Below are positions 2,431 through 33,690 of a stretch of 38,115 nt of DNA, piece after piece (within the stretch, counting starts at the first letter, position 1; each line of letters starts with the position of its first letter). Source of the stretch: Carex sylvatica (taxonomy: Eukaryota > Streptophyta > Magnoliopsida > Poales > Cyperaceae); the NCBI GenBank assembly GCA_964058845.1, contig CAXKVR010000795.1, positions 1 through 38,115 on the forward strand. The letters are read 5' to 3'. Position numbers and translations under genes: made by a program. The notes beneath the pieces were generated by a model, which was not told where the DNA came from, ran no database searches, and was given only the letters and a program-made list of their open reading frames with translations.

Positions 2431-2571
2431 AAGGTTTGTCAAGAATGAAAAGTCTGAAATTGGTACACTCTTGACCAAACTTATCTCAATGAAATATAAA
2501 GATAAAGGAAGTGTTAGGGAGTACATCATGAAGATGTCTAATGTTGTTTCAAAACTAAGGGCACTTAACTT

Positions 2572-3899
2572 TCTCTCCAGTTTCATTGAAATACTCTTTA
2601 ATGATTATATTGGCATTAATTGCGCATTTCGATTTAGAGCTTCATCATATGGATGTTAAGACTGCATTTCTCAATGGTGACATTGAGGAAACAATCTATA
2701 TGGTGCAATCAGAAAACTATGTGTCGGGAGACGCAAAATCTATGGTATGTAAACTCAAGAAATTCATCTATGAGCTAAAGCAAGCGTCTCGGCAATGGTA
2801 CTACAAATTCTATAATGTGATTATGTCATTTGGTTTTGAGGCAAATCTCTTGGATGAGTGTATATATCTCAAGTTCTGTGGGAGTAAGTTTGTGTTTCTG
2901 GTTTTATATGTGGATGACATATTGCTTGCCAGCAATGATATAAATATGTTGCATGAGACCAAGAAATTTTTGATGAAGAATTTTGAGATGAAAGATCTTG
3001 GTGATGCATCATTTGTCATAGGGATTGAAATACTGAGGAGTATAATCTAAGGTATATTAGGTTTGTCCCAAATGAATTATATCGAAAAGATCCTGAAAAG
3101 ATATGGCATGCAAGACAGTAAATTAGGACATACCCCTGTGGCAAAAGGAGACAAATTTAGTCTCAGCCAATGCCTAAATAATAATTTAGAAAATGAAGTA
3201 AAGCAAAAGTATCCATATGCTTCAGTCATTGGGAGCATCATGTATGCGCAAGTGTGTACGCGTCCAGATATTGCATTCATCACTGGCATGTTGGGCCGAT
3301 ACTTATCAAATCCAGATCTAGATCATTGGAAAGCAGCCAAACGGGTCTTGAGGTACCTAAAATGAACAAAAAACCACATGCTCACGTATCGGAGATCGGA
3401 CAAGCTAGATGTCATTGGGTATACTGATTCTGATTTTGGAGAATGTCAAGATAGCATGAAATCTACATACGGCTACATTTATATGTTAGCTAGAGGGGCT
3501 ATTTCATGGAAGAGTGCTAAACAGTCACTTATAACATCTTCCACAATGGCCGCAGAATTTGTAGCAAGTCATGAGGCATCAAATCATGGTGTATGACTGC
3601 GCAATTTTGTCACTAGGCTGTGTATAGTAGAGTCTATTGAGAGACCACTAAAATTGTATTGTGACAATAATTCGGCTGTGCTATACGCAAACAACAATTA
3701 AAATTCGTCAAAGTCCAAGTACATTGACATCAAGTTCTTGGTTGTAAAAGAGAGAGTGCAGAATGGTCAATTATCCATAGAACATATAGGGACATACTCC
3801 ATGTTAGCGGATCCACTTACTAAAGGATTATCACCCAATAAGTTTGAGGAGCATGTTACTCATATGGGGGTAGTTTTTGTTAAGAAAATTCTGTTTTAG
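2572..3899 (+). pseudogene. Ty1/copia pol remnant: reverse transcriptase and RNase H
   Basis: One frame runs from FSPVS at about 2570 to a TAG at 3897-3899. The copia reverse transcriptase (RVT_2) is shown by HFDLELHHMDVKTAFLNG, the YVDD active site at 2907-2918, and [14 protein letters not shown] with TRPDIAF. RNase H follows (YTDSDF near 3420, then AAEFVASHEASNHGV), and the polyprotein tail includes IDIKFLVVKERV and DPLTKGL. Four in-frame stops interrupt it (3048, 3363, 3594 and 3699). Protease, integrase and the start of RT are absent: Gag joins RT directly, which implies an internal deletion of a few kilobases. The copy cannot make its own replication proteins. Confidence 0.92.
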
Positions 3900-5909: not shown

Positions 5910-7541
5910 TCAAGTATGTGTTGGGCTGGACATCACACAGCAAAACCACTTTTTCTGCTGTAACACAAAAAGAAAGAAAGAAAAAAAAAAAGGATTATGA
6001 ATTTAGTACCATAAAGAAAAAGCACACAGAAGGAACTCTTTGAGGATGATTTTCCAGAGTATCTAGTTCATGCTTTACAACACAAATATGCCAGTTCAAA
6101 TATTGTTTGCTTCTGCCTTCAAGAAAATCAAAACCCATTTACAATATAGGTCAGAAATCCTGTACGGCCCATCCAATTTGATCAAACCTTACCAGAATCG
6201 AAGTGAAGAATATAAAAAAATTAACCACCCCAAGAAATTGACCCAAAACATGAAAAAACCACCTGCCTAACTGTAATCAGGTCTGATCTGTACTAACCCT
6301 ATCTGAACCTTAGCAATTATAAATTAAAATAAACATAACAGTAGCATTACATGAAACTCTTACTAGAACTCTTAACCCCAAAAATGCTGAACCACAAGTA
6401 TAGTCAAATTTATCTAGAATTTAATTCAATGCCCTGTAACCCATGAAACCTGATATATGCATTAAAACCTGACAGTACCTGGCATTTAAAACCGGTAACA
6501 GAAACTATCCAGAAAGGAGATGACCCAAATAATCAACCTGGGCTTAACCCAAGCTGAACCCAAAGCAACCCTGATTTGTCTCATCCAGTTCAGTTGTACT
6601 ACAGGATTAGGCTTAAGTTTTCATTGGGATGGGTTCTGATATGCAGTTTTACTGGTTTGATAATTCCTCAAGTTGGCTCTGTATTCCATTGCATAAAAAA
6701 AATAAACTAAGAGCCAAATTGAGCAAATTAGGGGCTTAAATTAACCCTAAATTGAGGCAGTATTTAAAAATTAAGGCCTGTTCAAGGTCAAATTGGATGA
6801 AATATTTAGCTAAGCTGGTGTTTATAGCACAAGGAAAGGTAAAGTGGGGTTACTTCAGGATCTATTACAAAGAAGAAACTCACAGAATTAGACCGGGTAG
6901 CATGGCCTACAGTAGGTTTGTTACTCCTATCATCTTTCATAGGTGAGTCAGTATCTTGTGTATTTCCCCCTTTCTTTTCATCCCTGGCCTTGTTAAAAAT
7001 TACAGTGAAGCCATCGGCCGAGGCTGGGTCATTCACATCCCAATCTCCAAACTTTGGCAAGGGGCGTCCATTTTCCTCCTGCAGAGGGCAGAATTGTTAA
7101 ACACCAAAAACTCAGGGGCCAAAATAGAGATGTCTACCAGACAATACTTCTTGCTTTGGTTAGATATATTAACCATCTGATACATCTATATCAAATAAGC
7201 GCTCAATAAATTCCAAATCAAACAAATTCTCATTTTTCCCAATTTTATTCATATTTTTTGCTTCCAGTGATGGATGAACTCGAAGGTTAAAATAGTACTG
7301 TAGAGTTAATCTCAATTAAAAGAGTACAGCTCCTAGATTCCAGCAGACTCGTCGATTAAGTAGCTCAAAAGATGGATAGAGACCAATAATAGTAATTAGC
7401 TAAAATATCAGAAAATAGATAAATTATCCTGTTAGTGAAACTTGGAAGCCAAAGTGCGATAAAAGTATACAGTTTTATCCTGCTAGAAACAAAAGAAGAA
7501 AAAAAAAAAACAGAAGCCTGAAGATCTGTGCTTACCGCCAT
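5910..7541 (-). CDS. NOI/RIN4-family protein, 82 aa, three exons
   Basis: Coding exons on the minus strand are 7536-7541 (only Met-Ala), 6884-7078 and 5910-5957, all joined in phase 0. Introns are 7079-7535 (donor GTAAG, acceptor CTCTGCAG) and 5958-6883 (donor GTGAGT, acceptor TTACAG). Together they encode 82 residues plus TGA. Residues 8-32 match the NOI (nitrate-induced) domain: LPKFGDWD at 9-16 is the conserved motif that is cleaved by the protease AvrRpt2 in RIN4, and [17 protein letters not shown] follows. Thr27 corresponds to the threonine of RIN4 whose phosphorylation activates RPM1 in Arabidopsis. The C-terminal KKWFCC (69-74) carries a Cys pair typical of acylation and membrane attachment. 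Small single-NOI proteins of this size are common in plants and most have no assigned role. The exon model is inferred from junctions and family fit. Confidence 0.88.
5958..6883 (-). other. Intron 2 of the NOI gene
   Basis: A 926-bp AT-rich intron with donor GTGAGT and a tandem NAGNAG acceptor (ACAGCAG). Choosing the second AG removes only Gln68. Short reading frames here have no recognisable product. Confidence 0.75.
7079..7535 (-). other. Intron 1 of the NOI gene
   Basis: A 457-bp intron directly after the second codon. A first coding exon of only two codons is typical of short NOI genes. Nothing else seen inside. Confidence 0.75.
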
Positions 7542-12442: not shown

Positions 12443-13915
12443 ATGATGGCTGAAAAGCATGGAAACACAATGCTCAAACATGAGATTTCTGATGATAAAC
12501 GACATCAACAAAATAGTGATACATCCTACATGACAAAAGACATCGGCAATATCCTTGTTGCATCGATCGCCTTCGCTGCCTCCTTAGCCACCACATTTGC
12601 CATCTTTACCATCACAATTACCACCACATTTCTCCTCACCTTCCTCAAATCCCTGATTAATTTTTTCACTGGTTGCAAATCCATTACCTCCCCTAATTCC
12701 AGAACTGGCACATTTTTCCCTGCCCCGACCAAATCTGTTCCAAATCGGTACCATGCTCGACATGAACGCAATATCTCGTCAACTCGCTTTATACCGAAAT
12801 TTATATGCAAAAGCACAGTCCTTCCTCAATCTTCCAAACGGACCCTTTTTCTCGGCCTTGGCCGGATCCTTGTCAATTTTATAGTCAACGAGCCATGTAA
12901 TCGGTTTGACTTTGTGGTGCATCCGGTGATAAAAGGGAAAAGAAGGGCATGCTATGTGATGAAGCGACCTGGCCTTGATGAATTTCTCTGTGCTGCCAAG
13001 AATGCTTCCGTTGAAGTTGTCATTTACACAAGCGAATGCAATGAATACGCTGATCCGATCATTGATAGACTTGACCCAATGGGAAAGTTGATAACGCACC
13101 GGTTGTACCGAAATGCGTGCACCAAGTGTGGAAATGGGTTATTCATGAAGGATTTGGTTTCGACAGGAGGACAACTCGACCAATCTTTGATTATCGATGA
13201 TAATCCAAAGAAGCATGTCAAGCAGTGGGGTAATGCAATTGCGGTAAGGCCATTTCTCGGAGATCATACTGACACTGATCTCATAAATTTGGCCAAGTTT
13301 ATTGAGGTGCAGAGGAACTTCAATGATATTTGGCAGCTAATTCAATTGAAAAGATTGGGTATAATATATTTTAATTCAAAGGATAATGAAGAGTTTGGCA
13401 TGGCAGCATACAGGCTTTCTTTATTGCAATCTTTGAATCTGAGCTCAAGTGTCACTAATTTTGCTTATTCACAACTCTGCTTGGATTTCAAGTCTTCACC
13501 ACCTCCCCTTGAACAAAGTCTCAAGTTGATTTCCCCTCTCAATCATCTCAGTAATTATCTGGTGAAGGTAACTTTGAAGGACAGTAAATTACCAGAAACC
13601 ACAATTCCAGTTCTTCAGAGACTAACCAACCTGACTGCTCTTTCTCTTGTTGTATATGATTATTACAATGAAAAAAACCTGAAATTTCTTGGAAGCACCT
13701 TTTTAAAGCTAGAGATACTAAATCTTGAAGATCAGGATAATCTAAGTTCAGTCACTTTTGAAGAACAGTGCATGCCAGAGCTGAAAGAATTAAGTGTTAC
13801 CTCGTCTAACTTTGATTTTGTCATAATGGGAATTGGGAACCTTCTTAAACTAAAGAAGATTCAAGTTCATTGTGGCAAAGAGGAGAATGCAGTGCAAGAT
13901 ATGGTACAACAGTAG
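12443..13915 (+). CDS. Membrane FCP1-like pseudophosphatase fused to NLR-type LRR, 490 aa
   Basis: An intronless 490-codon frame; ATG at 12443 is followed at once by a second ATG. Residues about 34-76 form a long hydrophobic segment, so membrane anchorage is likely. Residues about 131-300 are an FCP1-homology (NIF/SCP-type HAD) domain: KRTLFLGLG, RACYVMKRPGLDEF, VEVVIYT, ITHRLYRNACT, MKDL, LIIDDNP (250-255) and NAIAVRPFLGD. The catalytic DxD is replaced by Gly138 and Gly140, so phosphatase activity is not expected although Lys236 and the DDNP motif remain. From about residue 301 (QLKRLGI) the sequence switches to leucine-rich repeats. SSPPPLEQSL, PVLQRLTNLTALSL, FLKLEILNLEDQDNLSSVTF and MPELKELSV resemble the C-terminus of RPM1-like CC-NB-LRR proteins. 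No NB-ARC is present. The two paralogues downstream carry a second, active FCP1 domain at this place. The frame is uninterrupted, which argues against an assembly artefact, but expression is unproven. Confidence 0.85.
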   Translation: MMAEKHGNTMLKHEISDDKRHQQNSDTSYMTKDIGNILVASIAFAASLATTFAIFTITITTTFLLTFLKSLINFFTGCKSITSPNSRTGTFFPAPTKSVPNRYHARHERNISSTRFIPKFICKSTVLPQSSKRTLFLGLGRILVNFIVNEPCNRFDFVVHPVIKGKRRACYVMKRPGLDEFLCAAKNASVEVVIYTSECNEYADPIIDRLDPMGKLITHRLYRNACTKCGNGLFMKDLVSTGGQLDQSLIIDDNPKKHVKQWGNAIAVRPFLGDHTDTDLINLAKFIEVQRNFNDIWQLIQLKRLGIIYFNSKDNEEFGMAAYRLSLLQSLNLSSSVTNFAYSQLCLDFKSSPPPLEQSLKLISPLNHLSNYLVKVTLKDSKLPETTIPVLQRLTNLTALSLVVYDYYNEKNLKFLGSTFLKLEILNLEDQDNLSSVTFEEQCMPELKELSVTSSNFDFVIMGIGNLLKLKKIQVHCGKEENAVQDMVQQ

Positions 13916-15150
13916 TAGATTAATATATATATCAAGTTATTAACTATGCATGATTAGAGCATTTTTAATAACTCGTCAAATGTGAATGGATCTTTGGTTC
14001 CTTGCAACAAAGATGCAAAGAGTACGTTCAATTATATGTAAATATTTCCTTGTTTTATTACATTGCATGTATATATTTTTTTTTTTCTTGCGCTTCCAAT
14101 GAAGAAGGCGAAGAAATTAAGTGTTTTTATTTTTTTTATTTTTTATAATTCTCTGTTGTTTGGCTCACAGGTCTGTTATTTTCATTTCCTTTTACCCCTT
14201 TTATTATGCTTGTAACTATATGAGTTGGTTCATATGTAATTTTCTCCAATTGTCAATTAGCAAATTATTCAATGATAATCATTTTCTTTTTTTTAATCCT
14301 AATGAAAAGGAAAAAAATTGTATTTACACTTAGATTATTAATAGTAGATTCTTCTTAAGGTTAGTTTAAAAATTAAGAGCCATAATTGGGAAAAAAAAGG
14401 AATGCAAAAATGTACTGGATTAGCTATCTGAACACAATAAGAGCAAAAGAAGACCCTCAATTTTTTTTCCTTTTGCTGAAGATTGAGATTTCATGCGCTA
14501 AAGATGGATGCAAAAGGAGCTTAAAAAGGAACTATGGAGTAATGAAGTATGCAGTTCCGTTAATACAACCTAAAAGGCAACAGCAGTTAGCACAACATTT
14601 CAGGAAACAAATCACATGCTAACATAGCATACGCATTTCTCAATAAGACCGATAAGGTGCCCAACAGCCCAAGTCTTGAACAATCTTGAACATGCTAGCT
14701 TAATATATTTCAGCACACACACACAAAAACTAGGGGAAATTTCCCAAAAAAATTACAAATGTTTGCATATCAATAAGGGAGAATTTCCGAAAATTTGAGA
14801 AAATAATTAGAAATATAAAAACTAGTGGAACTTTGAATTAATTAACAGCTCACTTCCCATTTTTTTTGCATAGTATAGCAAAGAAATACAAATGTTTGCT
14901 TATCAATAATGGATATTTTCCAATTTTTTTTGCCTAGTTTCGTACGACATTTTAATATATAAACCACTTTGTATTAACCTCTCAGATATGAAATTAGATT
15001 TGGACTATATGTATTTCATCCGAAAAATAAATGTATTACAGTAGTCTAACAAAATATACATCTATAAATGTTTTAAATTTCAAACTTGTTTTTACTTTAA
15101 AAGAAAGATTTTGTCGCAATTACATAATTAATAAATGATTCTGTTTCCTC
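13916..15150. other. Intergenic, first to second FCP1 gene
   Basis: It holds the 3' UTR of the fusion gene and AT-rich DNA. A short direct duplication is visible: ACAAATGTTTGC.TATCAATAA at about 14754 and again at about 14889, with similar flanks. A (CA)n run lies near 14714. No remnant of a second FCP1 domain or of an NB-ARC domain is recognisable after 13915. Reading frames at 14121-14333 and 14386-14622 have no family features. Confidence 0.55.
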
Positions 15151-15151
15151 G

Positions 15152-15158
15152 TATATAA
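15152..15158 (+). promoter_or_regulatory. TATA box of the second FCP1 gene
   Basis: TATATAA lies 119 bp upstream of the ATG, giving an expected 5' UTR of about 90 nt. The call rests on motif and spacing only. Confidence 0.5.
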
Positions 15159-15276
15159 CCAGACACTCTGGTTATGAATTTTCACCTTTTACCAATAATG
15201 CAAGGACTATCGTTTTCCTAAATTAGGAAACGAATTCCATAAACCTCGCCTCAAACCGCGCCTTTCAGGAAAATTA

Positions 15277-16818
15277 ATGGACAAATCTTCGCAAACCTTC
15301 GAAAAAAGAAAATCAAAAGGAAAAATGGTGCAATTCCTTCAAAGCTTATTCCCCAAACCTGACATATCCGATGAAAAAACACATAGAGACAAAACATCCT
15401 CCTTGGTGAAACACATAACCGACACAGTCAACGCCTCCGTCACCTTCGTCGCCTCCTTAGCTGTTGCATTTGCCATCTGCTATGTTGCCATAACCTCGGC
15501 AATCATCCTCTCATTACTAAAATCCTTTATCAATCTTTTCTCTTTTCGCAAATCGACTCCATCCCCTCTTTCCAAACCCGTCAGGCTTTCGCCTTCCCGG
15601 ACCAAACCTGTTCTAACCCGGTACTCATTCTATCATGATCAAAAGGTCTTGTCATCTCTACCACCGTCCGAGCCGGTTGTTGGTCTTTCCCTTCCAGCAC
15701 CTCGAAATGCACTTTTCCCTGAATCTTCTAAAAAGACACTTTTTCTCAGTTTGCGCCGAGTCCTTGTCAAATGTAGTTTCAACCCGCCACATGACCAGTT
15801 TGACGTCTTCGTGGTGTTTCCACTAATAAAGGGGATTAGAAGGGCATGTTATGTGCTCAAGCGACCAGGCCTTGATGAATTATTCCGTGCGGCAAAAATT
15901 GCCTCGTTTGAAGTTGTCATTTACACAAGAGGGCTTAGTGAGTTTGCTGGTCCAATCATTAACATGCTTGATCCGACCGGGGAGTTTATCACACACCGTT
16001 TGTATCAAAATGCATGCACCAACATGCATCGGAAGGATCTGGTTACAACCAGGAGGAAACTAGACAGGTCTGTGATTATTGACGACAATCCAAGGAAGCA
16101 TGTCAAGCAGTGGTCAAATGCGATTGCAGTAAGACCATTCCTCGGAGACCAAACTGATACTGATCTCATAAATTTACTCAAGTTTTTTGAGGTGGAGAGG
16201 AATTTTGCTGATCTTCGACAACTCATCAACATCATGTCATTCAGTCCGGCCGCATCAATTCTTCCACTTCCTAGCACTGACAAGAAGACATTATTTCTTG
16301 ACCTGGATCAAACTTTAATCTATGCAAGCACCAAGCATCCCAGTGATAGGAATTACTTTGTAAACGAGCCGTATTTTATTGTCAAGCGACCGGGTGTGGA
16401 AGAATTGTTGCGGGCCGCCCATTGGGCATCATTTGAGATCGTGATTTTCACAGCTGCAAGTGCAGGATATGCATCACCGATTCTCGACTGGCTCGACCCA
16501 AGTAACAAGTACATCACGCACAGGTTGTACCGGGATGCATGTACTGCAATCAACGAAGGGTGTTATGAGAAGGATCTGACAACCACTGGCAGAAGGCTCG
16601 AGTGGTCAGTGATCATAGATGATAGCCCAAAACTTGTGCGGCCTCAGGAGAATGCAATTGCCATGCGACCATTCAAGGGTGATTCGTCTGACAGGGAGCT
16701 CTTGAACTTGTTGTGGTTTTTTGATGTGCAGAGCAGGTTCAATGATATCAGAATTGCGGCGAAATATGTGAATGATCTTTACCGTGCCTTCAGTAATCAA
16801 AGAAAAAAAGCGGGTTGA
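15277..16818 (+). CDS. Membrane protein with tandem FCP1 domains (dead + active), 513 aa
   Basis: An intronless 513-codon frame. Residues about 52-92 are hydrophobic, aligning with the upstream gene's membrane segment. Domain A (about 151-320) is an FCP1-homology domain whose catalytic aspartates are replaced by Ser158 and Arg160, while KDL (Lys253) and IIDDNP (267-272) are kept. Domain B (about 336-500) keeps the DLDQT signature (342-346; nucleophile Asp342, general acid Asp344), FEIVIFTA, Lys432 in EKDL and IIDDSP (446-451). It should therefore be a working HAD-type serine/threonine phosphatase of the SCP/NIF class. The substrate is unknown; members of the class act on RNA polymerase II C-terminal repeats or other phosphoproteins. 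The membrane segment makes a nuclear CTD role less obvious. Domain A may be regulatory or substrate-binding; that is inference. Confidence 0.92.
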   Translation: MDKSSQTFEKRKSKGKMVQFLQSLFPKPDISDEKTHRDKTSSLVKHITDTVNASVTFVASLAVAFAICYVAITSAIILSLLKSFINLFSFRKSTPSPLSKPVRLSPSRTKPVLTRYSFYHDQKVLSSLPPSEPVVGLSLPAPRNALFPESSKKTLFLSLRRVLVKCSFNPPHDQFDVFVVFPLIKGIRRACYVLKRPGLDELFRAAKIASFEVVIYTRGLSEFAGPIINMLDPTGEFITHRLYQNACTNMHRKDLVTTRRKLDRSVIIDDNPRKHVKQWSNAIAVRPFLGDQTDTDLINLLKFFEVERNFADLRQLINIMSFSPAASILPLPSTDKKTLFLDLDQTLIYASTKHPSDRNYFVNEPYFIVKRPGVEELLRAAHWASFEIVIFTAASAGYASPILDWLDPSNKYITHRLYRDACTAINEGCYEKDLTTTGRRLEWSVIIDDSPKLVRPQENAIAMRPFKGDSSDRELLNLLWFFDVQSRFNDIRIAAKYVNDLYRAFSNQRKKAG

Positions 16819-20023: not shown

Positions 20024-21190
20024 ATGGCGCAAGCCATGATCTCATCCTTTCATGACCCGACCAAATCCATTATTTCATCTGCTATTGTTTCTTCTCCTCC
20101 TAGTTTTCTGTGCAAGAGCAGTATTCCTCTGCTCAACCCCTACAAGAGAACGCTCTTGCTCGGTGTTCACAAAACCATGATCCACGTAACTGAAAAGCTG
20201 CCATCCGATGGCCGGTACAACTTCAAAGTGGATAATTGGGTGAATAAGAAGAAGACGGCCTTGTATGTTATTTTGCGTCCAGGCCTTGACAAATTTCTCA
20301 AAGCTGCCAAGAAGGCATCTTTCGAGATCGTTGCTTTCACCATGTGGCCACAAGGCCTCATATCTGATATACTTGACCGGATTGACCCGTCTCGGCGGAT
20401 AATATCGCACTGCTGGCTGATACAAGACACCCATTCTGGCATGCTAAAAGGAAGGGCGTTGCTTGATCGCACGGTGATGGTAGACCACGAACCAAGAGTT
20501 TACGACAAGTATTGGTCTAATGTTATAAAAGTGAGTCCCTTTTTTGGAGATGCTAATGACTCGGAATTGTGGAGTTTACTTGGCTTTTTTGAGGCCCAGG
20601 TAAATTTTAAGGATCTACGCAATCTTATCCATATTAGTTCGGGTGATCCTCCACTGCTGGGTCTTCCTCTCCCTGACACCACCCGCAAAACACTTTTTCT
20701 CGACCTGGATGAGACGTTAATTTGCCATGTAGACCTACATGAGAAGCCACCTAAGTACTATGACTTCGTTACAGAATGTTGCTACGTTATAAAGCGCCCT
20801 GGCGTGGATCGGCTGCTCCAGGCTGCTGTCAATTATGCATATGAAATTGTCATTTTTACAGCTGGATGCAGAGAATATGCTTCTCCAATCATTGACAAGC
20901 TCGATCCTGCAAGGCTCATCACACACAGATTATATAGAGATTCATGCAAACAAGATTCCCAAGGGAAGCCTGTTAAGGATCTGGCTTTGACTGGCAGGAG
21001 CCTTGGCAGGTGCATCATGGTTGATGACAAATGTTACCGGGTGGTCCCGAGTAAGAATGTCATCATGGTGAAGCCGTTTATGGGTGATATGAAGGATTAT
21101 GAGCTTGACAGGTTGCTCCTGCTTTTCCAGATTGAGAGCAACTATGAAGATCTCCGAGTTGCAGTGGGACGGGTGAATGAATTGTTTTAA
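20024..21190 (+). CDS. Soluble protein with tandem FCP1 domains (dead + active), 388 aa
   Basis: An intronless 388-codon frame, paralogous to the two genes upstream but without their membrane segment; the first 40 residues are Ser-rich and polar. Domain A (about 41-205) is the most decayed: the catalytic aspartates are Gly47 and His49, the motif-IV pair has become VDHEP (153-157), and the motif-III KDL is not visible. Domain B (about 221-385) has DLDET (227-231), EIVIFTA, Lys318 in VKDL and VDD (333-335), with the usual SP after DD replaced by KC. It should bind magnesium and act as a HAD aspartyl-phosphate phosphatase of the SCP/NIF class. Without a membrane anchor it may act in cytosol or nucleus. 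The start is supported by a leader-like 5' region and lack of an upstream in-frame alternative. Confidence 0.92.
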   Translation: MAQAMISSFHDPTKSIISSAIVSSPPSFLCKSSIPLLNPYKRTLLLGVHKTMIHVTEKLPSDGRYNFKVDNWVNKKKTALYVILRPGLDKFLKAAKKASFEIVAFTMWPQGLISDILDRIDPSRRIISHCWLIQDTHSGMLKGRALLDRTVMVDHEPRVYDKYWSNVIKVSPFFGDANDSELWSLLGFFEAQVNFKDLRNLIHISSGDPPLLGLPLPDTTRKTLFLDLDETLICHVDLHEKPPKYYDFVTECCYVIKRPGVDRLLQAAVNYAYEIVIFTAGCREYASPIIDKLDPARLITHRLYRDSCKQDSQGKPVKDLALTGRSLGRCIMVDDKCYRVVPSKNVIMVKPFMGDMKDYELDRLLLLFQIESNYEDLRVAVGRVNELF

Positions 21191-23190: not shown

Positions 23191-26100
23191 ATGGCCGAAC
23201 AGCAGCTCAGAGAGCTCGGCGAGAAGTTGCAGTCGCCTCCTTCCTCGAAGGATGAGCTAGTCGAGCTGCTCAAGGTAGAGTATCGGTTCTCTTTTGTTGG
23301 TTGATTTTGTAGATCTCTTTGGTCAGATCGATTGGGTTTCTTGTGGCTAGTGATTTTGGAGAGTTTTTGTTAGGCTTTTTGGTGGGTTTTGGTTGTAATT
23401 TCCCGAAGTAGGGTTTCTGTTGTCGTTGGAAAGTTTCGAGTTTGACTCGTTCCGGTGAAAATTAGTGGTTTCTATCACTTTTTTAGTTTGATTCAGAGTT
23501 TGAAGCAGTGGTTTCAATGATAATTTGAAGGTTTTAAGTGGGAAGCTTTGGTTTCTGTGAACTGGAAAATCGAATTCGTGGAGTAGGAACTGTATATACT
23601 GCACAGAGTAAGCTGGGGAAGTGACTTTCAAGTATTTCTGTTAGATGTTATGTTCTGATTAGGTGTTGATGTGGTTTGGTTAAACAGTGCTTTTAGCTTC
23701 TGTGGTTGTTTAGTAGGAAAACTTGTCATCCTGGATGCTTAGTTGATGACTTTGGGTAGTATTGGAGGTTAATTTTAATGGTTTCTGTTCTGATTTTGGT
23801 CACAGGAAGGTTCTTTAGGAAGCTTTTTGTGGTTGAAAATTATATTTCTATGATTGGTTTTCATTAAAGTTGAAGTTCCAAATATGGAGCCAGTCAGGGA
23901 ATCTTCCGTGATTCTGAATTTGTTGTACCATAGTGCACTTTTCTATAGGCATCTCAAGATAGAATCAATTTATCATAAGCAGTGTATGTTTGGAACATTT
24001 TTATTGTAGAGTTATTTTATTTAGCTCCTGGAGTCCCTTGGCTGTGCAAAATTTCCATCTATAATGAACATTTACAGAGAAGTGCTCGGATTTCATAACC
24101 AAGCAAAACAGCCACTTCTTTTCAAAGACAAGGAATAACAAAAGCTATCGCTCATGTTTATCACCGAACACAAACCAGATGAATTCTCAGTTCATGTATT
24201 CTATAGCTTGTTAATTTCGTCAAGCACGGTCAAATTAGCTGGATGTGTCGCATTTAGTGTTTGCAGTACCATAAGTGAGTCTCAGTTCACATATTCTATT
24301 GCTTGTTAATATTGTCAAGCACAGTCAAATTAGTTGGATGTGATTTTGTCGCATTTAGTGTTTGCGGGACCACAAGTGAGTCTCTTCTCTAGAACCAACT
24401 TAACATAAATGATAATATACCAGGTTTTAACAACTTTTAATAGAGCCAGAAAGTGCTAAGCATCCTCAATATGTTCCCAGTAGAGCCTAATGAGTGTATT
24501 GAATTTGTGCAGAAAACAGCCAGTGCCCTGTCAGAAATAGAGCAGTCACCACGCCCCTCGGTGCTTGACTCCTTGAACGATTCCTTTGATGCATTTTCAA
24601 AGCCGGAGCTGCTGAAGCATGAAGATAGTGATGCGAAGGTTATCATTGCTACTTGCATCTGTGAGATCACACGAATCACTGCTCCAGAAGCACCTTACAG
24701 CGACGATGTTTTGAGGGTAACATGATTTCATTTGTTTCCTTGTTGTTTCTTCCTTTCATGTAGAATTAAATAATTACAGGTTTTCCTTGAAAAGTGAAAC
24801 ATACTTGTATTTTTCTTATTAATTCATAACTTGACTACTGGAGATTACTTTTGGCCTTTAATAAAATATGTTATTCTTGTAGTATTCTACAGTATATATG
24901 TGTAAAAAATATTTATCTAACATAGTCCTTTCACCTCTTTTGGCAGGATATGTTTGAAATTATTGTTGGCACTTTTAGCGGGCTAAAGGATTCTAATAGT
25001 GCCACTTTTCCAAGGAGGGTTACCATTCTAGAAACACTCGCTAGATACAGATCGTGTGTTGTGATGCTTGATCTTGATTGCAATGATCTCATAAATGAGA
25101 TGTTTCATAATTTCTTCAGTGTTGTGAGGTACAATTCTAGAACCTAACATATAATCCAATGTCAGATTGGTCTATGATTTTCACTTATGCCTAGTTTTAC
25201 TGTTCACTTTTGTTTTTGGTTACTGTCACAGTGATGATCACTCGCAAAGTGTTGTAAGTGCAATGCAAACAATTATGGTTGTAATTATTGAAGAAAGCGA
25301 AGAGATACAAGAAAACCTTTTGCTTACTATTTTATCTGCTTTGGGCAGAAAAAAGCCTGTCAGTTCCTTTCCTCTCCTTCTATTTGATTACATTCAATTT
25401 TTTTATCTTTTTTTATTTTGGCCTTTATACTTGTGTTGTTTGGACAATCTAGGGTTTTTCTTTGGCTGCAAGGAGGCTTGCCAAGAGTGTTATAGAGAAC
25501 TGTGTAGAAAAGCTTGAGTCACCAATTAAGCAATTTCTCGTCTCATCAATTTCTGGTGAAGGTGCATTCTTGAGCAATACGATTGACCATCATGAAGTCA
25601 TATTTGATCTGTACCAGTCTGGACCCCAGATTCTGACAGGAATAGTTCCGTTTATTACTGGAGAATTACTGGTAAAGCAACCTCGCCACTCTCCCCCACC
25701 CCACCTTCTGCTGCCCTTTTTTTTTTCCACGTCCTGATTCTTATTAAAAAATTTCTACCAGTAGAAGTCTTTAATACAGTGGTGGATCCTTATTATAGGA
25801 TTTTAGTAATGTATCAGTCAGAGCATACAATACCTACAATTTCAGAAATCTTCTTATTTATTATTTATCTAATATTTCCTTATATATTAAGGTACATCTG
25901 TTCCGTTTGGCCTTTACTTAGTTGCATTGCATCCCTTAGCTGAGATGCTTGAAATTTTTTTATCCTTTACTTTGTTGCGAGTCAGAAAAGCAAAGTTTAT
26001 CTATATCTTTTTGTAACTTATAGACAGACAAGCTTGAAGTGCGTAGTAAAGCAGTCGAATTGATAGGGGAGCTAATTTCTCTACCTGGGGTTCCCATCTT

Positions 26101-29100
26101 AGAGTCGTTTCAGCCCCTTTTCTTAGAGTTTTTGAAGCGGTTGACTGATCGAGTAGTTGATTTGCGCATTTCGGTGATTGAGCATTTGAAGAATTGCCTC
26201 ATCTCACACCCTTCTCGGCCTGAAGCTTCTCAAATAATCCGTACATTCTTTTGTCTTCTTTTGCTTTCTCTTTTCATCTATTCTAGCTAGTCAAAGAAGG
26301 GTTTCTTTTATTTGGAAGAGCATTACCCTTCTCTGTTGTAAGCACATGAGAATCTATTGTCTTTGTTAATTAATTAGTATGGGTCACATATGCAGAGGCA
26401 CTCTGTGATAGGTTGTTAGACTTTGATGATAATGTTCGAAAGAAGGTAGTTGCGGCAATTTGTGACGTAGCTCACCATAAGTTTGAAGAAATTCAAGCTG
26501 AGACTATCGAATTAGTTGCAAAGCGACTTCGTGATACATCGGTTTGTTCTCAAAACTTTTGTTTAATTCCAGGAATTAGATTTTTTGCCTTTCGTACAGA
26601 AAATTTTAATGAGAATATTTTGGCTGAGTTGTAGATATCTGTCAAGAAATACACCATGAAGAGGCTTGCTGACATATACCGGCTTTACTGTGAGAAAAGC
26701 ACTGACAGTTCAAAAGATGGCAAGGAATTTGAATGGATACCAGGAAAGATATTGAAGTGTCTCTATGACAAGGATTTTAGGTAGGAGATATATACATTCT
26801 TTCCTAGAAATAAATGTTATGTGTCATAGGAGAAACATATTAAAATTATTCTGATCTCTTTTCTAAAATGTGTTCAGGCCGGAAACAATAGAACTCATTA
26901 TGATTGATTATTTCCCGGGTGAGTTCTCTATTAAGGACAGAGCAAAACACTGGGTAAGGGCTTTTTCCGGTTTTGATAAGATTGAGACAAAGGCCCTCGA
27001 GCAGATTCTAATCCAGAAACAGCGGTTTGCTTTTCACCATAATTCCTTTAATTACGTGGTGTTCTGAAAAGAATAGGTATATAGTGGATTTTAGTGTTGC
27101 TGGCATATGATTTCAGGTTACAGCAGGAGGTGCAAAAGTACCTTGCCCTTAGACAGACATCTCAGGTAATTATTGTCGTTGTCATTGTTATTATCATTTA
27201 TCAATATACTTTGTTTTTGAGTTATTATAGCAAATAATTGTCTTCTTTTTAACTGGCCTATTATTTAATTTGTTAATTCTCTAAATACAGGAAGAGGCAC
27301 ATGATCTTCAGAAGAGAATATCTGTGTGCTTTAGGAGCATGTCCCGTTTATTTCACGATCATTCAAAGGCAGAAGAGAGCTTAATTGCACTCAACCAATT
27401 TAAAGATGCCAATGTTTGGAAATTGCTAAGCACCTTGCTTGATCCAGCCACACCATTCCAACAAGCATGTTCTGTTCGGGTAACTTTTGGTTCTTTTACT
27501 GTTAATCATACTGTTTTTTAAAAGTTTGTACCCTTCATTGTTTTGGTTATTTCTAACAATATTCTTATTTGTGAAGGCTGAATTGCTTAAGATAATTGAT
27601 GAAAAGCACCCATTGCATGAATTCATGAGCATGCTGTCGGCTAGATGCTCTTATCTATTGATAAACAAGGAGCATGTGAAGGAGTTCCTTTCTGTTGCAT
27701 CAGAGGAAAAATCTGCTGGGAATATTGACCTCCTTTCAGCATGCATGAATCTCCTCACTGTAATAACTTCTACTATTCCTTGCAGAACAATCTTGAAGAC
27801 TATACATGTTGGTTTTCAGACTCTTAAGAAGTTCTGTGACTTAATTTTCTAGGTGATTGCTTCTTTCTTTCCTATGCTCTTTTCTGGGTCAGAGGAAGCA
27901 CTTGTAAATCTCATAAAGGAAGACGATGAAATACTGAAAGAAGGTATTGCTCATGTTTTGGCCAAAGCTGGTGGGACCATCCGTGATGAACTAGCTACGA
28001 CATCAAGGTGCAGTACTTGAATTAGTTTTAGAGTTGACAGACAAAATTTTCTTAACCTCTTACAACGTCATTTATGTTGTTCATTTCAGCAGCTCAATTG
28101 ATCTAATTCTAGAGAGGCTGTGTCTGGAAGGAAGCCGGAAACAGGCAAAGTACTCTGTCCATGCCCTGGCTGCTGTTACAAAGGATGATGGTCTCAAGTC
28201 TCTGTCTGTTCTTTACAAGGTTGTGGTTTTTGAAATTCGTGCGAGAAATATCTCATGATAATTATTCTTCTTTGACTGCAACCAGGGGCGGATTCACTCA
28301 TAGTGAATGAGGGTCAATTGACCCCCATTTATTTTCAAAATTTCTGTGCTTACACATAATTTTCTATATAGTTTAGAGTAAAATGCTATGGGTACTGTAA
28401 AATTGACCCTCCATACACAGCATGAAAATTTTATATGGATGACCCTCTATATGTTTTTGACCCCCATACCTTTAAAGTCTGGCTCCTACCCTGACTGCAA
28501 CATTACTCTTTAGTAGCGAAGTTCCTCACTTAGGTATAAATTGATGACACTACCTGATTTCTAGGCCAGATAACAGACAAACTAAAGAGAAGAGGATTTA
28601 TATTTGATTAATGTTGTTCTAATTTATTGGTATCTTTACTTCTTTGGCAGAGGATTGTGGATACATTAGAAGAGAAAGTTCACTTGCCATCTGCGTTGCA
28701 ATCTCTAGGATGTATTGCACAGATTGCGATGCCAATTTTTGAAACAAGAGAAGAAGAAATAGTTGGCTTCTTGAATAGCAAAATACTGGAAAATAGCATT
28801 GTGAGTTTTCTGTTAAATCTTAAAATCAAATTTTCATTATTATGATTTTGCTAGCCTACCCCAACTTGTTTGGGACTACAGGCTTGGTTGTTGTTGATGT
28901 ATGATTTTGCTAGTGAATGATTATTCTTTTCCTTTTCGGGAACAGAAGGCTGACGAAGTTTCTCCTTCCAAGTCCGAATGGAGCGAAAGATCAGAATTTT
29001 GCTCTTTGAAGGTACTGATTTTATTGCTGTCTTCTTGGTCATGTTAAATTGGATAGTAATGCAAACATTCATTCTTGCAGATTTATGGCCTAAAAACTTT

Positions 29101-32100
29101 GGTGAACAGCTATTTGCCTTCTACGGATGCACATGCACGAGAAGGAATTGAGAAGCTTCTCAGACTTCTGAAAAACATTCTCTCATATGGGGATGTTTCT
29201 CCAAATATGATTTCTAGGTATTGAAAAGAGGGTTGTGTAACTTGTAATTGACCATCTGCATTTATTACATTGAGTTAATAATGTTAACAACGGTCAGCGG
29301 AAAACCTTTTGGTAGAAGTATTGAAGGAATTTACTAGTACTACAGTTAGAAGCTGCAGAATACATTTCAGGGGGGGCGGGGGGACTTGCAGCTCTGTACT
29401 GATTTATTTCTTTTCTGATGATATAAAATGGTTGCAGTGCTATTGACAAGGCTCACCTGAGGCTTGCTTCTGCAAAGGCTGTCCTTCGCTTATCGAGGCA
29501 GTGGGATGCACAAATACCATCAGATATCTACTACTTGACTCTGAGGATTTCCCAGGTAATTTAATAATGAACTGAACCAGTGCACTGGACTCAATAATTT
29601 TTTTTGTTTTTGGGACATTGTATAGTTTTTTATTTAATTTATATTCTTTTACCATTTGTTTAAAAGGATGGGAATCCTCAATCAAGAAAGCTGTTCCTTG
29701 GCAAAGTTCATCAATACATAAAAGAAAGAGTATTGGATGCAAAATATGCTTGTTCCTTTCTGCTAAACATCTCCAAGTACCACTCACCAGAATATGAAGA
29801 GGTCAGTACTCACAGTTCCATTTTTAGTATGGTTGTATGCTTTTTGTTCTAATAATTGTCTTCTGCTTACAAGAAGTTTTTGTCAATTTTTTTATTTTTT
29901 TTCTTCTTTCACTTTTTGGTGTTGTCAGTGTAAGCACAACCTACTTGAAGTGGTGCAAATATGCCAACAAGTCAAGATGCGCCAACTCTCAGTGCAAGCC
30001 GACATGAACCTTCTTGTAGCTTACCCAGAGTACATCCTTGCTTATTTGGTACATGCACTTGCTCATGATCCTTCCTGCCCCAAATTTAAGGAGGGCACAG
30101 AAATTGACGCATTTGGGCCCATTTATTGGTATGTCAGTTAATTGTTGTTTCCCCCTTTGTAATAACTTGATGACTGGTTAGGTTAGAACATGTACTGGAA
30201 AAAGCCAACTTCTTTACTTTTAGCTTTTCTCTGTTATTTCTGAAATTATTATTTATCTGAAATTTTATCGGAACTACCAGGCGGCTTTCATTGTTTCTCA
30301 CCGTGCTATTAGCTGGAGATGAAAATACACAAGGTGGCTCAGCTGCAAATAAAGAGAGCTACAAAACAGTTGTCTCAATACTGCATAGTATCAAATCTTC
30401 TCAAGATATAATTGATGCAGATAAGACACAGGTATGTTACAACTCTTACGTGTGGTATATCTATAATGTCTCGTGTCTGGGTACAATAAATGCATGATGA
30501 ATTTATATGTCCTCTTATGAAATAATAAATACAATTTGTGCTCTTTTGTTCAGAGTTTACATGCCATAAGCGACCTTGGTCTTCTCATTGCAAAAAGGTT
30601 GGTCTCTGATGGGACAGAAATTGGTCAAACACAAGCAGTTCCATTGCCTACTCAGCTTTATACAACTCCTGAGAAAAGTGAGCAGGAAAATGGCATGGTG
30701 AGTAATTTTGAGACGTTGATAAAAGTAGATTATTTGCCCATGTTTCTAACATTAAAATAATAAATGCAGGAATGTCTGTTGGTATTGTGAAATCCTAAAT
30801 CCTAATTAGTGGGAAACCTAAGTTGACTTTTTTAATGACTGGTCATTATTATTTTATATTTATTATCTTTTTTTGTGTCTCATGTAGGAGAATAAGCACA
30901 CTTGGTCAGCTGCTGAGAGTGTTATGGCCCATTTTGAGGCTCTTAAAGTTGAAGAAGAGTTGGTATGCATTTTACCCTACAAATGATTTCATAGTTTAGG
31001 CTTACTGGCTGTGATAGGTTCATGTCAGACTGGATCAGGGTGAAGCCTGGCATGGCCTTGAGACTGTTGGGCTGGGCCAGTAAGGTCAGACTGTTGGTAT
31101 TAATAACTCGATTAGACTTGTTGGCCTTATTACACCCGTGAGCAGAGTTTAAGATGGGTTTTATTATCCATTTTGAGTATGGGCATTTTTGGAAATAGCA
31201 ACCTGGCTTTTGTAAGTTGGGTTTCATTTAAGTTAGCATTGTGGGCTTCTTTAGGCCCCAAAGTTTACCAGTTAGTTGCAAATTGGAAAATAGAGAAGGA
31301 AAAGCAAAGAGCAAACAAGAATAAAGAATTAGAAAAGAAAATGAAAAGGAAACTTTCCTCATTTCTTCTCCATTCCCATCTTATCTATTTTGATATTGCA
31401 TGCATGTTACTGTAAATCTGAGACTGAAACCCATAAGACGTTTCTTTGGATTAAATATGGACCTTTTGTGTTAGACATTTTTGAGTCATTAAATCAATAT
31501 TTCAGATTCTTTGAAGTTGGTATAGGAATCATATTTTTTTTTTTCCTATTTAGAAGTTAGAAAGGTTCGTGAGGTTTTGGTTTTATAAGACCTTTTTCCC
31601 CTTTAATATACAGATTGATGATGAATCCCTATTGCCGGTGACGGACAAGGATGGCAATGAGCTGCCCTTGAGCAAAATTCTGAAAATTATCAAAGCCCAG
31701 GGAGCAAAAAGAAAAAAGGCGGCCAAGGAGGAAAAGCCCAAGGACCCCTTTGCATTTGATGGTGAGGACGAAATATTAGGTGTTGTCAGAGAAATTAATT
31801 CGGATAACACAGAGGGGGCCCGAAAGAAAGAATTAGTCTCGAAGAAGAGGCAAATTGAGAAGGGAAGTGCCAGCTCGACCCCTAAAAAGAAAAGATCCGT
31901 TCCTGTGTACCAGTCCCCGCCAAAGAAAACTGAAGAAAAGAAATCGTTTAAAACTGAGAAAGATGTTTCTATGGGGGAAAACAAAAGTTCTGCGTCAACA
32001 AGTTTTGAAGGGAAAAACAAGAGTGTTGATGCCAGGAGCTCAAATGGTTCGGTGAATAAACGCAAGAGGGAAAGCTTCTTGGGTCTAGAAAAGGTAACAT

Positions 32101-33690
32101 TAGATTCTACATGTACTGTTTGTGAGGTTAGTTTATAAATAAACTGATTTGATAGTTGAGCCTACTAGTTCAGCTATTAATTTTTGCTTCTATGCCTTTC
32201 TTTTTATTTTGCATCAATGCCTATAGTGCTCGACAAAGGGTAATGAAGATGATCCCGAGGAGTTGATTGGTAAACGAATTAAAGTCTGGTGGCCTCTTGA
32301 TAAGAAGTAAGTCTCTTGTTGGTACATTTTTTTTTTCTTGTAAGAAACTATTTTAGTAGCAAATTCAAACAAGTATTTGATGCAACTGTTTTTTCCATGT
32401 TTCTGTCATCAGGTATTATAGTGGCATTGTGGGGTCCTATGATGCAGGGAAGAAAAAATACACGGTGAATCTCATGATCTTTGTCTTTGTTTTCATTGGG
32501 GGGATTATGTGTTTTCTAGTCTAATTGGTTTAGATTGATTATATGAAGTTACAGATGTCTTACAAAAGGTCTGAATTTTATAGTTGACAAGAAATGTTTT
32601 GCTAGTTTTTTACAATCTTGTGCTAATTTTGGTAGATTCTCTATGATGATGGAGATAAAGAGGTGCTTAACCTAGCTAAACAGCAATGGAAGCTCCTCAG
32701 CAGTGACTCACTGGCAAAGGTTAATTTGACCCACGTTTTTTATTTATTTTTCTATCAGAGTAAAGTAGTCAAGTTGAGCACCTGAAAACTTTATTTAATT
32801 ATGACTTGTTTTAACAACACAGAGACAAAAGACTGATCAGAAGACAACTCCCAAGGAGTAAGGATATACCTTTATTTTTTTTCTGGTGTTTTCTTTAAAG
32901 CTCTTACTGAAGTATTTATTTCGACCATTGCCTAACCAAATACTATGTGTTTACAGATCTCTTGAGAAAAAACGGGATACTGCCAAGCAGACTGACAGCA
33001 TACCACAGAAGACCCCTGCTAAGAAGTATGTAATTTACCAAGGGAAAATATATGATCCCCCTTCTTACACATTTGGGGGGTGGGGCTCATTTTTGCATGT
33101 GGTCCACAACCCATAGATTGTAGGGGCATGAGTCAGGAGCTTAATGAGGGACACTGTATCAGCACCCATTTGTAGAACTCCAAATTTAATATCATTCCTT
33201 GTGGTCAGTTTAGTGCAGCACTAACTATCTGATTTGTTGTTTTAGGTCTCCTTCATCCAAGAAAAAAGATTCCAGCAAACCAAAGGGTCGACCTAAGAAA
33301 ACACCTTCAGGAAGTGTCACAAAGGGTAGCGTTCCAGATGATCCTGTAGATACTACTGAGGCTGATATTGATGATGCAAATAATGGTAACATATTTGATA
33401 TCATGATGGCACTATAAGCTACTTTGAAGTTTCTAGTAACATTTTATCTGATTTTAGGTGGCAATAAGGTTGAAAAGGTAGAAGAGCCTGATGCTGGGTC
33501 TAAGGAGAATTCTGAGGATGGCGTGAATCAATCTGACGATGAAGATGAGCCTCTGGTAATTTTCTAATATCTAATGGCTCATCTTTTAAGAAATTAAAAT
33601 AAATTACAGCATAGCTCTTAACATTAGTGAATTCTCTGCATGTAATTATTGCAGAGCACGTGGAAAGCAAATTTAACAAAGGTGAAATAA
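23191..33690 (+). CDS. PDS5: Sister-chromatid cohesion factor PDS5, 32 exons, 1475 aa
   Basis: Coding exons: 23191-23274, 24513-24716, 24947-25128, 25232-25358, 25453-25671, 26024-26240, 26396-26541, 26635-26780, 26878-27024, 27117-27165, 27291-27479, 27577-27759, 27853-28007, 28090-28219, 28651-28800, 28946-29011, 29081-29217, 29438-29555, 29667-29801, 29929-30128, 30281-30431, 30554-30697, 30888-30962, 31614-32093, 32227-32306, 32413-32464, 32636-32719, 32823-32857, 32957-33025, 33246-33385, 33458-33555, 33655-33690. All phases agree, totalling 4428 nt with the stop. PDS5 binds the cohesin ring in the nucleus and controls cohesion, repair and chromatin looping. Family words include EITRITAPEAPYSDD, ARYRSCVVMLDLDC, FLKRLTDRVVDLR, KILKCLYDKDFR, AKAGGTIRDEL, RKQAKYSVHALA and YPEYILAYLVHALAHDPSC within HEAT repeats to about residue 1050. 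A charged linker follows, then a Tudor-like domain (about 1291-1344: GKRIKVWWPLDKKYYSG, ILYDDGDKEVLNL), an AT-hook-like GRP (1399-1401) and an acidic tail. I cannot say which PDS5 paralogue it is; the length fits the long plant form. Least certain is the exon 4/5 junction (donor GTCAGT). Confidence 0.93.
23275..24512 (+). other. Intron 1 of PDS5, with a tandem duplication
   Basis: The longest intron, at 1238 bp. A tandem duplication of about 95-101 bp lies at 24185-24279 and 24280-24380; both units begin TCTCAGTTCA and end with AAGTGAG. No coding sequence recognised. Confidence 0.7.
28283..28493. mobile_element. hAT-type MITE, 211 bp, in PDS5 intron 14
   Basis: It starts CAGGGGCGGA and ends CCTACCCTG, hAT-like inverted ends. 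Identical octamers ACTGCAAC flank it (28275-28282 and 28494-28501). It contains iterated TTGACCC/GACCCTC words and no reading frame. It lies wholly inside the intron between exons 14 and 15, so it does not alter the protein. Confidence 0.88.
28855..28900 (+). mobile_element. 5'-truncated SINE (46 bp) in PDS5 intron 15
   Basis: The sequence CCTACCCCAACTTGTTTGGG, then GGCTTGGTTGTTGTTG, is the conserved 3' end of a widespread plant SINE type (Au-like, with TTG-repeat tail). It is flanked by a perfect 14-bp direct repeat TATGATTTTGCTAG (28841-28854 and 28900-28913, the tail's last T shared). That fits target-primed insertion of a 5'-truncated copy. The whole lies between exons 15 and 16. Confidence 0.82.
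30963..31613 (+). other. Intron 23 of PDS5
   Basis: A 651-bp intron. The stretch 31010-31300 is less AT-rich than its surroundings and has a repeated GTCAGACTG (about 31025 and 31086). It may be old transposon DNA, but no ends or duplications were found. Confidence 0.5.

Follow-up and report, generated by a model that had tools for sequence, protein, structure and literature searches.

How did a gene of Carex sylvatica come to join, in a single open frame, an FCP1-type phosphatase domain without its catalytic aspartates to leucine-rich repeats (LRRs) like those of NLR immune receptors, and what could its product do? The gene lies on contig CAXKVR010000795.1 in a stretch of 38,115 nucleotides, all of which was analyzed and is called the window here. 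The features of the gene and of its neighbors are the following.

12443..13915 (+): fusion gene, a single open frame of 490 aa plus stop, with full-length homologues P0002 and P0003
12542..12658 (+): hydrophobic N-terminal stretch, putative membrane anchor (residues about 34-72)
12842..13327 (+): NIF/FCP1-homology domain, motif-I aspartates lost (residues 134-295, Pfam E 3.4e-33)
12854..12862 (+): motif I (DxD) site, reading G138-L139-G140
13334..13369 (+): junction (residues 298-309), where NIF similarity stops and NLR similarity starts
13343..13912 (+): NLR-type LRR half (residues 301-490, about 190 leucine-rich residues)
15277..16818 (+): adjacent paralogue, 513 aa, with a hydrophobic stretch, a NIF1 that lacks DxD and a NIF2 that has DxDxT
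20024..21190 (+): second paralogue, 388 aa, NIF1 without DxD and NIF2 with DxDxT

An earlier note on this DNA had proposed a single-frame fusion, and the frame indeed covers exactly 12443-13915 on the plus strand, its 490 codons (product P0001) being intronless, with no intron needed to join the two parts. The order of parts given there, a membrane segment followed by the NIF domain and the LRRs with no NB-ARC, was also recovered, the anchor being putative. Hydropathy windows of 19 residues exceed 1.6 at starts from residue 34 to 54, with comparable windows in P0002 and P0003, while the domain borders follow from the Pfam match to NIF and from matches to NLRs. Pfam found no NB-ARC domain in P0001, P0002 or P0003. 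Going by its predicted domains, P0001 is not an NLR, as it is without NB-ARC, nor is it an NLR with an integrated domain, a class that combines NB-ARC with a foreign domain. The fusion looks like a genuine protein-coding gene, neither a broken gene nor an assembly error.

The NIF domain of P0001 (PF03031) scores 115 bits against a cut-off of 21.8, which places it among NIF domains, and its relatives by sequence in the PDB are SCP1-3, Tim50 and CTDNEP1. An AF2 model computed from 12 sequences reached ten-residue means of 64-91 across residues 131-300 (overall mean 50.2); the LRR half was poorly modelled in it, the rows of the two-NIF paralogues being misaligned there. The motif DxDx(T/V) is absent from the fusions, which read G-L-G in P0001, S-L-F in P0002 and G-L-C in P0003. 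Residues 138 and 140 of P0001 are both Gly, and relatives having the motif carry Asp at these positions. The replacement of both catalytic aspartates by Gly had thus been read correctly, but it does not distinguish the fusion: both motif-I aspartates are replaced in all eight readable N-terminal NIF domains (three from fusions, four of the neighbor type and one from a third gene), a count that leaves out P0004, whose sequence does not include this part. DxD is retained in five of five second NIF domains and in three of three single-domain relatives. The predicted loss of the active site is shared with the first domains of the paralogues and is not peculiar to the fusion. Since DxD was lost in all of these first domains, those of the paralogues included, and kept in all of the second domains, the dead site is probably older than the fusion.

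The roles given here to the motifs of this domain are those known from HAD phosphatases. The Thr of motif II, the Lys of motif III and both Asp of motif IV are present in all four fusion proteins; these four other pocket residues are all intact in just two of the five paralogue first domains, and the pocket of the family is not uniformly preserved. By sequence criteria, P0001 is a HAD pseudophosphatase, with the catalytic aspartates gone and the domain and other pocket residues kept, and it lies outside the active FCP1-type phosphatases, having no DxD.

The two neighboring genes stand in tandem and have a pseudo/active tandem phosphatase layout. Each contains two NIF domains with DxDxT in the second only, which bears out the earlier statement that the paralogues carry a second domain, predicted to be active, where the fusion has its LRRs. 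The product of the adjacent paralogue is 94.5% identical to P0007 of Carex littledalei over 495 residues. A remnant of NIF2 downstream of the fusion was sought as well and rejected, as tblastn with the paralogue second domains found nothing in 13916-15199 at E ≤10.

At the junction, the BLAST similarity of P0001 to the first NIF domain of its neighbor stops at residue 302. Similarity to NLRs begins at residues 295-299, right after the last NIF-like residues, where LIQLKRLGI is aligned with LTQLRSLRI. This agrees with the switch near residue 300, in a short stretch similar in both families, that the sequence alone had suggested. The same junction was then sought elsewhere. A search of ~5.8 billion proteins, with 7992 candidates scored, listed at least 13 proteins at E ≤0.001, and three proteins on separate contigs (one from JGI, two from Logan) span the junction with an identical core, LIQLKRLG. 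Two of them, P0002 (491 aa) and P0003 (503 aa), are 72% identical to P0001 over the whole length. The third, P0004, is a partial sequence of 332 aa with 95% identity; it starts at residue 158, an internal position encoded by GTG in the window, and the comparison covers it from there on. Some of these three proteins could be gene copies from one species. Searches with the LRR half returned fusions only: three proteins among 2003 candidates at E ≤0.001 (P0002-P0004), and two among 2200 candidates at E ≤10 (P0002 and P0003), P0004 being too short for the latter search. A separate LRR gene was ruled out, as the homologues span both halves.

In a tree, the NIF domains of the four fusions formed one clade (support 92/91); the branching order among this clade and the paralogue first domains is not fixed by it. 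The shared junction together with the single NIF clade argues for one fusion that was long kept open, and not for a misassembly. That two loci were merged by the assembly, as the drop of GC3 at the junction (NIF half 0.473, LRR half 0.342) might suggest, has practically no chance of being right, and we consider it ruled out, since three further database proteins, from separate contigs, carry the identical junction. The contig data also suggest that P0003 adjoins the two-NIF paralogue P0005, as in the window, each of the two being listed with two contigs, the longest of 12295 bases. Viral contigs scanned for DNA of the relatives gave four pattern matches, with no relative among them.

The origin of the LRR half was followed in the plant's own genome (an assembly of 64 Mb in 950 contigs). 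The two best frames found with this half showed 35-37% identity, and BLASTP against the own-genome frames, with alignments of about 190 residues, gave 30-32%. Of the four frames matched, three have the domains Rx_N, NB-ARC, WH_DRP and LRR_14; the remaining one, C1 (458 aa), contains LRRs and no NB-ARC. At E 0.01, BLASTP linked the LRR half of P0001 to all four frames, that of P0002 to one and that of P0003 to none. Alignment scores of the four LRR halves with the four frames were 5.9-20 SD above those of shuffled sequences in 16 of 16 pairs. When hydrophobic residues were kept fixed during shuffling, the real scores were still 3.0-6.9 SD higher in eight of eight pairs, although one shuffle beat the real score in one of the eight (P0003 against C1). 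Profile comparison of the LRR half with the four NLR frames, using shallow profiles, gave a probability of 96% (E 2.6e-9). As far as sequence comparison can tell, the LRR half of P0001 is homologous, distantly, to the tail of CC-NB-ARC-LRR receptors, in line with the earlier note. Its label 'RPM1-like' holds only in the sense of this receptor type, recognized by Rx_N, NB-ARC, WH_DRP and LRR_14.

Domain models gave a mixed picture when the halves were taken separately: the NIF half was recognized at E 3.4e-33, but the LRR half of P0001 matched nothing better than LRR_4 (E 0.18). LRR_14 was found in P0002 (37.9 bits, E 1.2e-9) and P0003 (36.5 bits, E 3.2e-9), in both cases just below the curated cut-off of 40, and P0001 was unlisted; the database annotation gives PF23598 for P0002 and P0003 and not for P0004. 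Beta-strand-like motifs, counted by eye, have the spacing of about seven or eight repeats. A PDB search by sequence with the single LRR half had an LRR receptor kinase as its best match (E 0.0021) and otherwise listed only a potassium-channel protein (E 0.53), while a profile of four LRR halves found nothing at E ≤0.1 and no NLR structure was matched by sequence. We prefer an NLR origin over that of a receptor-kinase LRR because of LRR_14 in P0002 and P0003, the NLR matches in the own genome and the profile comparison. No closer donor NLR appeared in the own-genome search or among the database candidates scored. In this genome, GC3 of NLRs is 0.43-0.45 for the tails and 0.35-0.36 for whole genes; set against these, the 0.342 of the LRR half neither proves nor excludes an NLR source. 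AF2 applied to the LRR half with four sequences gave a mean pLDDT of 38, which carries no weight against LRRs.

For the pairs P0001/P0002, P0001/P0003 and P0002/P0003, identities were 73, 77 and 84% in the NIF domain and 74, 76 and 78% in the LRR half, so that the LRR half appears about as well conserved as the NIF half. Within it, and with limits set by eye, residues 421-478 reached 84, 90 and 86% in the same three pairs, above NIF in each of them though narrowly in one, and residues 366-420, the middle LRR segment, were the least conserved (67, 64 and 73%). No invariant run within the LRR half was significantly long (p 0.08 for the longest). Between fusion and neighbor, dN/dS was 0.63-0.72 in the N-terminal part and as low as 0.22-0.25 in NIF1, which belongs to one of the two halves for which the earlier note had proposed this measure; these values average both lineages. 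In neutral simulations run to the observed protein divergence, the whole frame stayed free of stops in 0, 0 and 1 of 1000 runs (kappa 1, 2 and 4) and the LRR half in 0.9, 2.05 and 3.75% of 2000 runs at the same kappa values, figures uncorrected for databases listing open frames only.

We give about even odds (0.5) to the reading that the gene is a conserved, lineage-specific fusion that arose in one event and works as a membrane-anchored, non-catalytic scaffold. Its ancestor would have been a two-NIF gene encoding an anchor, a dead NIF1 and an active NIF2. In a duplicate of this gene, NIF2 would then have been replaced by the C-terminal LRRs of a CC-NB-ARC-LRR gene. Dullard-type phosphatases are membrane proteins that face the cytosol and have a hydrophobic N-terminus, and the fusion product may sit in the membrane in the same orientation. 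The pseudophosphatase pocket could still bind phosphorylated clients without releasing them; alternatively, the pseudophosphatase might pair with the active tandem paralogues or compete against them. The LRR would dock a conserved partner.

Another reading takes the protein as a dominant-negative brake that acts only on the active two-NIF paralogues, with a partnerless LRR as a mere cap. The genes form one tandem array and share a similar N-terminal stretch and the same type of NIF1 without DxD. A mere cap would have no need, however, for residues 421-478 to be more conserved than NIF in three of three diverged pairs, and we regard this reading as doubtful. An immune decoy or sensor would suit the NLR-like LRR half: the pseudo-NIF domain would imitate a phosphatase that effectors target, and the LRR would connect it in trans with a partner NLR. 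A NOI/AvrRpt-cleavage frame (PF05627, E 9.4e-23; 6806-7093, minus strand) also lies ~5 kb upstream of the fusion. This domain is that of RIN4-type proteins, which are guarded by the NLRs RPM1 and RPS2, but a lone NOI frame may be there by chance. NB-ARC is absent, and tblastn of the four NLR frames across the window (E 0.01) found nothing beyond the fusion. As the LRR was not seen diversifying, being conserved about as well as the NIF half, and as there is no NB-ARC, the decoy that the earlier note had raised is not favored; it has no direct support, and we hold it to be unlikely.

The same note had also considered a non-functional chimera, which would have stayed open by chance. The loss of the catalytic residues would fit this, as would the chance that P0004 is without an open frame upstream. 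No Carex littledalei fusion was among the matches listed either, though its paralogue P0007 was there; this may reflect a real absence, an annotation gap or the limits of the match list. Against it, the two full-length homologues keep the frame at 72% identity, which is rare under neutral drift in the simulations, and we find a chance chimera very improbable.

The preferred scaffold reading can be set beside several known systems. With SCP/Dullard-type phosphatases (NIF PF03031; the Arabidopsis SSP family) the fusion shares the NIF domain and the other pocket residues, as well as a hydrophobic N-terminus like that of Dullard, but it has no motif-I aspartates and carries LRRs after the NIF domain. 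Tim50, a membrane-anchored and largely binding protein of mitochondria, is a NIF-fold relative by sequence, the only level compared; it differs in being mitochondrial and without an LRR. The CC-NB-ARC-LRR receptors (Rx_N, NB-ARC, WH_DRP, LRR_14) have a homologous C-terminal LRR region, whereas the fusion is without CC, NB-ARC and winged helix, and identity is only about 30%. NLRs with integrated domains also join an NLR part to a foreign domain, but in the fusion it is the foreign protein that carries the NLR piece, with no NB-ARC. If our reading is true, a protein that is no NLR has here acquired a fragment of one, the opposite of what is usual in NLRs with integrated domains. The fusion would also be a natural experiment, in which an anchor and a pseudo-domain similar to those of the tandem paralogues are combined with LRRs in exchange for the catalytic domain. 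More tentatively, and with a modest chance of being right, the fusion might represent a new type of regulator in plants: an LRR derived from an NLR would target a pseudophosphatase that is anchored in the membrane and binds phosphate, and would so join the recognition surfaces of immune receptors to FCP1-type control of dephosphorylation. In the main texts of the open-access literature, we found no paper describing a NIF/FCP1-LRR fusion, lists of integrated domains being usually in supplements; nor did we find in these texts a paper linking PF03031 with NLRs or one on NLRs of Cyperaceae.

The rest of the window contains a Copia-type reverse transcriptase frame at 2559-3047 (+; RVT_2, E 5.4e-41) and a frame at 31554-32135 with no Pfam match. 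Exons of a PDS5 cohesin gene lie at 24444-26287 (+) and possibly further, two frames giving matches at E 2.2e-15 and 7.1e-13. Elsewhere, at L018 2895-3545 (-), lies a single-NIF, SCP-like gene that is apparently split by introns and has its DLDETL motif intact.
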